Of a stretch of 64,000 nucleotides of DNA, positions 38,806 through 42,246 are shown in pieces; position 1 is the stretch's first letter, and each line of letters opens with the position of its first letter. Below the pieces are notes generated by a model. The model was not told where the DNA came from. It saw only the letters and a program-made list of their open reading frames with translations, and made no database searches. Made by a program: the position numbers and the translations under genes. The stretch covers positions 3,928,067-3,992,066 of the forward strand of contig NZ_CP047156.1 of assembly GCF_009834025.1 (NCBI RefSeq), in the 5' to 3' direction. The stretch is from Epidermidibacterium keratini (lineage in GTDB: Bacteria > Actinomycetota > Actinomycetes > Mycobacteriales > Antricoccaceae).

Positions 38806-39474
38806 ATGAGCAGCGACTACACCGGACATGTCGATGCCGGACAGACCTCGGGGGTACGACGGGCGGGGGCCTTGGAGATCACCAAGGCCTCGGTCGGGCC
38901 GATGGACAACAACGCCTATTTGCTGCGCAGCGTCGCAACTGGCGACGCGATCCTGATCGACGCGGCAAACGAGCCGGAGCGGCTGGTCGAGCTGGTCCGC
39001 GAACGGCTCGGTGAAGGGGTGCTGGAGAAGGTCATCACCACGCACCGGCACGAGGACCACTGGCTCGGGCTTGAGATGCTCACCGGCGTGACTGGCGCAC
39101 TCACCTTCGCGCATCCAACTGACGCGCCCGAGCTGCCGATCCCGAGCGATCCGTTGAATGACGGCGACAAGGTCAAGGTCGGCGACGTGGAGCTTGAGGT
39201 GATCCATCTGCGTGGCCACACGCCCGGCAGCATCGCGCTCTACTGGCGCGACCCGGACGGTGAAGGCCACCTCTTTACCGGCGACTCGCTCTTTCCAGGC
39301 GGGGTCGGCAAAACGTGGTCCGAGGACGACTTCCGGCAGCTGCTATCCGACGTCACCGAGCGGATCTTCGACCGGCTCCCCGACGACACCCATGTCTACC
39401 CCGGGCATGGTGACGACACGACGCTCGGCGCGGAGCGCCCGAACCTTGCCGAGTGGGGCTCGCGCGGCTGGTAG
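38806..39474 (+). CDS. Metallo-beta-lactamase fold hydrolase
   Basis: The 222-aa glyoxalase-II-like hydrolase has the metal motif THRHEDHW (about 83-90), further ligands in [10 protein letters not shown] and TGDSLFPGG, and the late ligand histidine in YPGHGDDT. The substrate is unknown; thioester or thiol-adduct hydrolysis is plausible for this subfamily. ATG has GGAG six nt upstream. It is divergent from uvrA, a neighbourhood conserved among actinobacteria. A hairpin terminator follows. Confidence 0.9.
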
Positions 39475-39546: not shown

Positions 39547-40863
39547 TTAGCCGCGTCCGGCCTGGTAGTGCGCCTGGATCTGATCGCCGCTTAGCGTCTT
39601 GTGATAGATCGCCATGTCGTCGACGACACCGGCAAACGCGAGCTGACGCGGATCGTTCGGCCAGCCGTCCAGCTTGTCCCACCCGACCCGCCAGTAGCCG
39701 CTGTAGGTCTGGGCGCGACCTGCCGGTCCGGTCAGGGACGTGCCGTCGACCGTGAACCGCATCTCGCTGTCACTGCGGCTGGCCACCACGTAGTGCCACT
39801 TGCCGTCGTTGTACGCCGAGGCCGTCTGCAGCCAGTGCGGCGAGTAGGAGCCGTAGCCGAACTGCAGTCGCCCGTCCGCCAGCATGTACACCTCTCGGTC
39901 GTAAAAAAACGCATCTCCGGCTTGACCGTTGCTGCCGAAGCCGACGATTCGCCCACCGGGCGCGCCGGGGTTGGCCTTGAACCAGAACTCCATGGTGAAG
40001 ACCTGCGGCCCGGGATCGGGGTACATGGCGTTGAGGGTCATGTAGGTGCGATCCTTCGACAGGTCCAGTGCGGCGGTGCTGTCCGGTCGAAGATCAGACG
40101 CCTTCGTCGTGAGCCCGTAGTTCGTCGTCGTGGCCGGCGGGTTGGGTGCGGAGTTGACGGTGGGGTCTGCGGTCTCGGCTTCGTAGTAGGCGATCGGCCC
40201 GTCGCCGATCACGAGGTCGCGGTACGCCGGCGCGGCGGCGGTGAAGGATGCCGCACTGTCAGTGGTCGCGCTCAGTGCCGCGTGTGCATCGCGTGCCGAC
40301 GCCGGGGTGACGAGGCTCAGCGTCACTCCGAGGAGACTCGTCGAGGTAGCTAGCAACCGACCCCGGCGGCTACCGAGCTGGTGTCCCTGGGCGAGATAAA
40401 GCAGTCCGGCCAAGCCGGTGGCGACACCGCCAAGGGCGATGACGTTGCCGTCCTTGGCCCAGGTGATCGGCAGGCCGATCCACGGCACGCGCAGCACCCC
40501 CACACCCTGGACGGCGTCCGGGGCCACCGGCGAGCTGTCCTCGTTCGGGTTTGCATCACCCTTGAGGATGAGCGCCCCGGCATCGTCGGTGCGCACCATG
40601 CGGTGCAGTCGAAGCCGATCTGCTCGGTCGGGGTCGGTAACCAGTGCGACCTGGCCCGGGACGACCTTGTCCCCGGCGATCGGCCGGCTGACCACAAGGT
40701 CGCCGGTGGAGATCGCCGGTTCCATCGATCCCGTGACGACGGTCGTGACCGTCCAGCCCAGCGCCAGTGGGATTGTGGCCCACAGGGCGAGGCCAAGCAC
40801 GGTAAACAGAATCGCGCGAGCGATTGTCGTGGTGATCAGGCCGGGCCAGGTCGCTTTGGTCAC
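39547..40863 (-). CDS. SipW-type signal peptidase fused to LamG/concanavalin-like domain
   Basis: The 438-aa protein has an N-terminal S26B signal peptidase: a membrane span at about 13-39, the catalytic serine in TGSMEPAISTGDLVV (Ser46), and His87 in LRLHRMV in place of the lysine of classical SPase I. KGDANPNEDSSPV gives the third conserved box. Two more hydrophobic stretches follow (about 138-158 and 171-188), then PASARDAHAALSATTDS (188-203), then a LamG-like jellyroll (about 212-438, e.g. FTMEFWFKANPG, DGKWHYVVASRSDSEMRFTV, VVDDMAIYHKTLS). GTG at 40863 overlaps the stop of the TasA-like gene (GTGA), so they are coupled. The SATTD motif is shared with that neighbour, suggesting the peptidase processes both. 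Confidence 0.85.
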   Translation of the reverse strand: MTKATWPGLITTTIARAILFTVLGLALWATIPLALGWTVTTVVTGSMEPAISTGDLVVSRPIAGDKVVPGQVALVTDPDRADRLRLHRMVRTDDAGALILKGDANPNEDSSPVAPDAVQGVGVLRVPWIGLPITWAKDGNVIALGGVATGLAGLLYLAQGHQLGSRRGRLLATSTSLLGVTLSLVTPASARDAHAALSATTDSAASFTAAAPAYRDLVIGDGPIAYYEAETADPTVNSAPNPPATTTNYGLTTKASDLRPDSTAALDLSKDRTYMTLNAMYPDPGPQVFTMEFWFKANPGAPGGRIVGFGSNGQAGDAFFYDREVYMLADGRLQFGYGSYSPHWLQTASAYNDGKWHYVVASRSDSEMRFTVDGTSLTGPAGRAQTYSGYWRVGWDKLDGWPNDPRQLAFAGVVDDMAIYHKTLSGDQIQAHYQAGRG

Positions 40864-41432
40864 TTGTTCTGCGCTTCCCAGACGAAGTCGAGCGATGCGG
40901 TGCCACCCTGCGCGGTGTTCGGCGTCTCGGCGGCAAGCGTGTAGGTGATCGTGTAGGCGTTCGACTCGCCCGGCGTACCCGCGGTCCCCCAGGTGCCGAT
41001 GCCAGTCGCGAAGCTGCTGGCGCTGCCGGTCAGGCCCTGGGCGGTGCCGCTGTAGATCGTCTCGCCCTGCGCACCGCAGCTTGCCGACTTGGTGATGGTC
41101 AGGTTGAGGTGGGCATCGAGGCCGCCGGTCTGAGACGCGTTCGCGGTGTAGAGCTTCACGTCCGAGGGCAGCGTGCCGTCCGAGGTCACCGTGATGCACT
41201 TGCTGCCGGTGTCGCCGGGCTTCATGTTCGTCACCGCGAACATCGCCGAGCCGTTGTCGTCATCGCGCAGCGAGACGGTGCCGGTCGACCAGTTGTTGCT
41301 GGGGTTGTCGGTGGTCGCGCTGAAGGCCGAGTGCGAGGCCTGCGAGACGAGTACGCCGCTGATCACCAGGGCGACGGGGATGGTGCTCCACTTGGCGATA
41401 CGAGTGGCGCGGGACGAGGGGGTGGCGGCCAT
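40860..41432 (-). CDS. SipW-dependent TasA/camelysin-like secreted protein
   Basis: The 190-aa protein has a basic N-terminus, a hydrophobic span (IPVALVISGVLVSQA, about 18-32), then SHSAFSATTDN as the presumed processing region. A beta-rich extracellular domain of the TasA/CalY type follows, with two cysteines (SKCITV and SASCGAQ) that could form a disulfide. TasA-like proteins form biofilm fibres in Bacillus after SipW cleavage. ATG has GGAAGGA eight nt upstream, and a good promoter lies about 60 bp upstream. Its stop overlaps the signal peptidase fusion gene, its probable processing enzyme. Confidence 0.82.
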   Translation of the reverse strand: MAATPSSRATRIAKWSTIPVALVISGVLVSQASHSAFSATTDNPSNNWSTGTVSLRDDDNGSAMFAVTNMKPGDTGSKCITVTSDGTLPSDVKLYTANASQTGGLDAHLNLTITKSASCGAQGETIYSGTAQGLTGSASSFATGIGTWGTAGTPGESNAYTITYTLAAETPNTAQGGTASLDFVWEAQNK

Positions 41433-41676: not shown

Positions 41677-42177
41677 TCAGACGGCCGGGCGAACCTCCAG
41701 CAGCTGAAGGGCCAGCCGGTCGACGAAGCCACCGAATACGCCGGTGACCGTGGCGCGGTCATCGCCAAGTGCAGCCTCGATGGCGCCGGCGTACCGCTGA
41801 CGCACTTGCGCCATCGCCTGCTCACCGCGCGCCGTCAAGGTCAGCAGCACGCTGCGCCGGTCGCTGGGATTGGGCTCGCGCGTAATAAGTCCGGCTGCGA
41901 CCAGCCGGTCAATAAGCGCGGTGGCCGAGCCCGTCGCGATCGACAGGCTGCTCGCAAGCGCCTTCGGCGTGGTGAAGCCCTCGTTCTCGATGTAGGCCAC
42001 CGCGCTGAGCTCGGGTAGCCCGATCTCCAGCTCCTTGGCCAACGCAGAGCGCAGCTGCTCATTTGCCAGGCTGAGCCGGCTGAGCCGATCGACGAGCTCG
42101 GAGAGCTCGCTTGAAATCCCGGTCCGCGATCCCGCCGTCGCGGGCCCCCTCGCGTCCGTAGTAGCAGTCTTATCCAT
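41677..42177 (-). CDS. MarR family transcriptional regulator
   Basis: The 166-aa winged-helix regulator has a dimerisation helix (about 25-50), an HTH at about 60-95 (PKALASSLSIATGSATALIDRL) and the wing ITREPNPSDRRSVLLTLT. ATG at 42177 is chosen because TATTAT lies exactly 7 nt upstream with no ribosome site (leaderless). It precedes the TasA-like/SipW-LamG pair on the same strand, and ACTTCT dyads occur near both promoters, so it may control that module and itself. Ligand unknown. Confidence 0.9.
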   Translation of the reverse strand: MDKTATTDARGPATAGSRTGISSELSELVDRLSRLSLANEQLRSALAKELEIGLPELSAVAYIENEGFTTPKALASSLSIATGSATALIDRLVAAGLITREPNPSDRRSVLLTLTARGEQAMAQVRQRYAGAIEAALGDDRATVTGVFGGFVDRLALQLLEVRPAV

Positions 42178-42246
42178 GACTGTCATAATACCCGACCCTT
42201 ATTTCCCTTCCTTAGTATCCTGTATCTGACTTATCTCATGTTTCGA

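Follow-up and report, generated by a model that had tools for sequence, protein, structure and literature searches.

A SipW-like signal peptidase carrying a LamG domain as its probable own substrate, encoded beside a TasA-like protein in Actinomycetota

The closest described systems come from Bacillus, in which the signal peptidase SipW cuts both TasA and TapA and mature TasA starts at A28-F29 (PMC9674648, PMC10151520). Residues 28-38 of TasA form the donor strand (PMC9674648), the N-terminus of TapA resembles this strand (PMC9674648, PMC10151520), and the stop of tapA overlaps the start of sipW in the Bacillus subtilis tapA-sipW-tasA locus (PMC10151520). In the sipW-tasA-calY and CapP system of Bacillus cereus, the substrates of SipW are two camelysins and an accessory protein that helps in assembly (PMC13082335); all of these are separate genes and CapP is no LamG fusion, whereas peptidase and LamG are fused in the locus described here.

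We analyzed a stretch of 64,000 nucleotides from Epidermidibacterium keratini (the window, to which positions refer), whose source genome is a single contig of 4,018,808 bases. On the minus strand, the window encodes a TasA/camelysin-like secreted protein of 190 aa (P0002; 40860..41432) and a SipW-like signal peptidase-LamG fusion of 438 aa (P0001; 39547..40863 including the stop codon; recognized by its ORF, PF13385 and TIGR02228). Both ORFs agree with the two-gene unit proposed in a first-pass annotation, as does their overlap, in which the TasA-like stop TGA (40862-40860) and the peptidase start GTG (40863-40861) share the sequence GTGA (40860..40863, minus strand). As in B. subtilis, a SipW-type peptidase is thereby encoded beside a TasA-type protein, and stop and start codons overlap, between tapA and sipW there and between tasA-like and sipW genes here. 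The second protein is the separate, Ig-fold TapA in B. subtilis and, in contrast, a LamG domain within the peptidase chain in our locus; TapA has an N-terminus resembling the TasA donor strand, and LamG would be exported with one of a similar kind. The TasA and SipW equivalog models gave no match at their cut-offs here. We only compare the fusion with TapA and do not file it as TapA, because its cargo is LamG and not an Ig-fold domain.

The source genome holds one PF12389 match, one SipW-like match (A1 profile, see below; 11 of 67 first-look candidates were scored) and, elsewhere, one PF10502 match representing a classical S26 peptidase. Domain searches identified a neighboring metallo-beta-lactamase-fold ORF (38806-39474, plus strand) and a MarR-type regulator (41677-42186, minus strand), which shares the strand of the gene pair and lies 244 bases upstream of it. 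A scan of the locus for promoters and terminators gave consensus matches only.

Residues 17-151 of P0001 match TIGR02228 (50.1 bits; cut-off 51.85) and the SipW model NF046067, a curated Bacillus equivalog (38.8 bits; cut-off 190), and because both scores lie under the cut-offs we call this half SipW-like rather than SipW. The catalytic pair Ser46/His87 named in the first-pass annotation is borne out by an alignment of eight sequences, in which all S26B motifs are invariant: S46 in GSMEP (40726..40728), H87 in LHRM (40603..40605) and G102-D103-N105 (GD.N). All three motifs are kept in 52 of the 54 extended and 44 of the 47 short SipW-like ORFs compared. Predicted transmembrane segments occupy residues 17-35 (TM1; 40759..40815; hydropathy 2.19) and 140-158 (TM2; 40390..40446; hydropathy 1.68), all on the minus strand. 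The peptidase fold rests on sequence, because AlphaFold2, run with an alignment that held LamG rows only, gave no useful model of this half (pLDDT <50 over residues 38-278). By analogy with Bacillus, the enzyme would cut TasA-type precursors.

The C-terminal half carries a LamG domain (residues 274-430; 39574..40044, minus strand) that matches PF13385 (Laminin_G_3) with 59.5 bits against a gathering score of 27.6. The jellyroll expected from the first reading was recovered by structure prediction: AlphaFold2 produced mostly confident beta structure for residues 280-438, and this model matches the LG domains of PAPP-A (Z 14.8, 150 aligned residues, rmsd 3.3) and laminin (Z 14.5, 133 aligned residues, rmsd 3.0). 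By domain kind, it is a putative sugar-binding-type protein. Separately, we noted a LamG protein (L045:7027-8358, minus strand; 1897035-1897784 in its own genome) in which a long acidic N-terminal region and a single hydrophobic segment precede the LamG domain. It has relatives in three other genomes of the same family (L047, L048 and L049), and BLAST found no SipW domain in proteins of this type.

The partner protein P0002 matches PF12389 (camelysin) over residues 29-97 with 24.6 bits, just above the gathering score of 22.5, and was aligned with 14 homologues of 35-58% identity. We refer to it as camelysin-like and not as TasA itself, because the TasA equivalog model NF046066 scored 16.1 bits, under its cut-off of 450. 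Its SipW-type signal peptide (residues 1-35; 41328..41432) ends in SQASHSAFSATTDNPSNNWSTGTV and is followed by A36, which is invariant in 15 sequences; from the A28-F29 start of mature TasA (PMC10151520), cleavage is predicted before A36-F37. The resulting N-terminus AFSATTDNPSNNWSTGTVSL (residues 36-55; 41268..41327, minus strand) is donor-strand-like and shows the motif of 59 stand-alone substrates described below. Its start AFSATTD is what points to putative fibre formation through an N-terminal donor strand. P72 and Q175, nearly invariant among the 15 TasA-like proteins, recall P62 and Q232 of the TasA interface (PMC9674648/PMC10151520), although no alignment to TasA was obtained. A single-sequence model of low confidence (pLDDT 56.6) matched TasA (5of1_A; Z 8.9, 137 aligned residues, rmsd 3.1), but many beta folds unrelated to TasA matched equally well (Z up to 9.5), and PDB sequence searches with P0002 and with a 15-row profile returned nothing at E ≤ 1.

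Between the two halves of P0001 lies a third hydrophobic segment (residues 170-188; 40300..40356; hydropathy 1.45), which we propose as the h-region of an internal SipW-type signal. It is preceded by the Arg-rich loop AQGHQLGSRRGR (three basic, no acidic residues) and followed by SARDAHAALSATTDSAASFTAAAPA. The first-pass annotation does not mention this junction, nor TM2 before it. The junction motif HAALSATTDSAASFTAAAPA (residues 194-213; 40225..40284, minus strand), with a proposed cut at A195/A196, scored 3.4 against the substrate profile (p = 0.015), and its mature half alone gave p = 0.007 when the site was chosen by the signal half. At this point, AHAALSATTD resembles SHSAFSATTD of the SipW-type signal in the partner, and the best local alignment of P0002 residues 11-60 with the whole of P0001 falls on residues 169-206 (score 45, reached by 6 of 1000 shuffles). 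The P0001 junction is a weak example of its kind (3.4 versus a training median of 43.2), with Leu where others have Phe and without N-x-W.

To place the fusion among its relatives, an alignment of SipW-like sequences (A1; 8 rows) was used as a profile on genomes of the order, class and phylum. At E ≤ 1e-6, 173 of the 298 genomes sampled in the order gave a match; at E ≤ 1e-10, matches came from 87 of 296 genomes in the class and 73 of 246 in the phylum (overlapping samples). From 183 loci we obtained 128 distinct SipW-like ORFs, 60 of which extend at least 290 residues past the Ser, the other 68 being shorter. A LamG profile built from LamG proteins without SipW matched 38 of the 60 extended ORFs and none of the short ones. 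The first-pass view that SipW enzymes normally stand alone, with the fusion as an exception, did not survive this count in the genomes examined; the share of 38 in 128 is nevertheless no population rate, because fetching favored long ORFs and best-scoring loci. No further LamG fusion was found in 20 extra stretches outside the 128. Likewise, BLAST of the ORFs revealed no second fusion among the relatives retrieved with P0001 itself, which were LamG-repeat or membrane-anchored LamG proteins plus separate SipWs; the fusions surfaced in wider stretches and with the SipW profile.

On a tree of the SipW domain (a quick tree from few columns), the LamG label requires 9 changes versus a shuffled mean of 33.1, and at least 5 changes are forced by starred branches; the fusion was therefore gained or lost several times. 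In five LamG fusions that group on this tree (L051, L052, L079, L087 and L112), additional sequence and more hydrophobic segments separate the peptidase from the internal signal. Another locus (L189:1458-8533) encodes three SipW-like ORFs within ~7 kb, one with a long extension after a signal that appears SipW-like by eye.

The junction motif was evaluated with a profile built from ORFs that have neither SipW nor LamG; its 59 substrate rows, some of them near-identical and one of them P0002, share A-F-[ST]-A-T-T-x-N-x-x-N-x-W-x-x-G-[ST]-V. With 200 shuffles each, the motif was recovered from 31 of 36 LamG-fusion tails at p ≤ 0.05 and from 26 at the stricter p ≤ 0.01, and the best site lies 91-159 residues before LamG in 33 of 36. 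None of 39 short SipWs used as controls contained it at p ≤ 0.01 or reached a score of 5 (8 of 47 tails were too short). This score was attained by 25 of 36 LamG fusions, 21 of 1158 other ORFs of 250 aa or more, and 5 of 49 LamG ORFs without SipW. When the site was placed using the signal half and nothing else, the mature half scored above its shuffles in 26 of 38 fusions at p ≤ 0.05 and in 22 of them at p ≤ 0.01, with the choice falling off the junction in a few cases (e.g. L087, L139, L123). Basic residues average 5.1 in the 20 positions before the last hydrophobic segment versus 0.7 in the 20 after it (37 of 38 scored). A SipW-type signal combined with a TasA-like mature N-terminus, as in TapA, was found at the level of the family, with P0001 a weak member (p = 0.015 and 0.007). 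The resemblance of each junction to its own partner was equaled in 2 of 5000 free permutations and in 655 of 5000 permutations within families, so co-variation beyond kinship is not above chance.

Among extended SipWs without LamG, the motif occurs in 3 of 18 at p ≤ 0.01 and 4 of 18 at p ≤ 0.05. Signals that look SipW-like by eye only were seen in L184, L185 (two ORFs), L186, L187 and L189, where the best profile scores run from -9.3 to 3.5, partly at other sites, and in L056 and L122 (-4.8 and -10.8). Seven loci (L103, L104, L108, L110, L188, L202, L203) encode SipW-like peptidases whose long extension shows no convincing SipW motif and in some cases contains another hydrophobic segment close to its end; they appear to form a different class of extended enzyme.

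Homologues of the two genes co-occur, as the first-pass annotation had led us to expect: 35 of the 38 LamG fusions have a TasA-like ORF whose end lies 0-1500 nt upstream of their Ser codon, and these 35 span 12 family codes. Within the same limit, such an ORF precedes 7 of 22 other extended SipWs and 27 of 68 short SipWs; the missing neighbors are soft absences, because many loci reach only ~1.5 kb upstream. In L053, the TasA-like/SipW pair is flanked by another protein of weak TasA likeness, encoded on the other strand (L053:3832-4908, minus strand), which lacks an A-F motif and has a hydrophobic stretch close to its C-terminus.

At four loci, sipW is accompanied by a free-standing lamG gene for the cargo, in the order tasA-like, sipW, lamG (L102), tasA-like, lamG, sipW (L050), or with lamG before sipW (L105 and L119). 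By eye, a hydrophobic stretch and a motif resembling that of SipW substrates can be made out at the start of these LamG ORFs, clearly in L102 (ISAYLARLVNTTDTVSS), L105 and L119 but weakly in L050. Only L105 has a high profile score (17.0); L119 scored 1.5, L050 scored best at another site, and the L102 ORF was outside the 14 best scores. L137 was not counted as a split fusion, owing to an ambiguous base in a repeat where two frames overlap.

The cargo is also exchanged. Big_7 Ig repeats follow the peptidase and junction in L135 (score 18.2) and on two Arthrobacter plasmids, NZ_CP013746.1 and NZ_CP154263.1 (L205 and L206; 24.7 and 30.6), and a SipW-GH26 fusion (score 16.8) is encoded on plasmid NZ_CP061722.1 of Pseudarthrobacter sp. 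BIM B-2242 (L204:3315-5566). Each of the three plasmid fusions has a TasA-like ORF in front; those of L204 and L205 match no Pfam family at E ≤ 0.05 and are called TasA-like on the motif alone (37.7 and 41.9). The peptidase half is easily overlooked, because all three plasmid fusions are annotated by their cargo only (Ig-like twice, glycosyl hydrolase once, the annotated start of the latter falling inside the peptidase). In L122, a CBM_2 match after the peptidase lies below its cut-off (20.2 versus 24 bits), with the motif seen by eye only. A further plasmid match, H1 (L207), was rejected as a fusion: it is a beta-propeller plus LamG sequence without SipW in the stretch read.

We favor the reading that LamG is a substrate in cis, freed by its own peptidase, and not an anchor, at a probability of roughly 0.65. 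The first-pass annotation had taken LamG for a surface-binding domain of the enzyme itself, and a tethered enzyme, with the third segment uncut and LamG holding the peptidase near a surface polymer or its TasA-like substrate, would agree with the single chain, with a LamG outside after a hydrophobic segment and with the weak motif of P0001. Nevertheless, a released substrate fits better because of the SipW-type signal at the junction (31 of 36 tails, with the mature half in 26 of 38), the four loci with separate lamG genes, and the replacement of LamG by GH26 or Ig cargo, and we now regard tethering as unlikely. More plausible, if still doubtful, is that LamG is released as a plain secreted protein with no part in a fibre, the motif past the cut reflecting peptidase recognition. 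The cargo is varied, and mature-side enrichment cannot separate recognition from strand donation, so that this conservation could reflect recognition only; against this stand the TasA-like gene beside 35 of 38 LamG fusions and the precedent of TapA.

The enzyme making the cut might instead be the housekeeping signal peptidase, given the PF10502 match elsewhere in the genome and A193-H194-A195, which is also an ordinary A-x-A site. We consider this improbable, since the junction resembles dedicated SipW substrates and a SipW-like enzyme is present in the same chain. Separate production of LamG from an internal start before the third hydrophobic segment, for which P0001 offers two in-frame TTG codons (residues 151 and 170), appears very improbable, because only 4 of 38 LamG fusions have an in-frame ATG in the 30 codons leading up to their last hydrophobic segment (ATG only counted).

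With LamG as a substrate in cis, the gene pair would be a compact TasA/SipW-type export unit that unites the peptidase and a second exported protein in one polypeptide. TM1 would cross from inside to outside and TM2 back, placing the catalytic domain outside and the Arg-rich loop inside, and the third hydrophobic segment, acting as an internal SipW-type signal, would bring LamG outside. The peptidase would then make two cuts, one in trans in the TasA-like protein, just before A36-F37, and one in its own chain, just before A196-L197, either in cis or between neighboring copies. A precedent for the latter cut is Staphylococcus aureus SpsB, which cuts the outer domain off polytopic LtaS (PMC12445088); SpsB is separate from LtaS, whereas here the peptidase sits in the same chain as its proposed substrate. 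As SipW cuts both TasA and TapA in Bacillus, a cis cargo with the same kind of N-terminus would stand where a TapA-like partner is expected. Because the new N-terminus of the freed LamG would resemble the TasA donor strand and that of the TasA-like protein, LamG may join, start, cap or decorate the TasA-like fibre as TapA does, adding a binding part, a suggestion by analogy that we hold at somewhat less than even odds. A fibre or adhesion role of the gene pair would follow the same lines.

The peptidase, the cargo domain and the partner gene are of known kinds. In titles and the starts of abstracts, mostly excluding subscription papers and preprints, we found no description of SipW fused to LamG or other cargo, nor of a signal peptidase that carries its cargo after an internal signal. 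If the proposed cut is real, peptidase and substrate would together make up a secretory polyprotein that processes itself, and one target of the enzyme could be read directly from the fusion. If the freed N-terminus acts as a donor strand, these loci would provide compact Actinomycetota fibre systems whose exchangeable cargo would lend itself to tests of the TasA/TapA mechanism. More tentatively still, SipW-type peptidases across Actinomycetota may serve as exchangeable secretion heads that are translated together with LamG, Ig or GH26 cargo, insert it by way of an internal signal and cut themselves off, leaving a donor strand with which the cargo plugs into the adjacent TasA-like fibre; such two-gene systems would decorate fibres with adhesins or enzymes.
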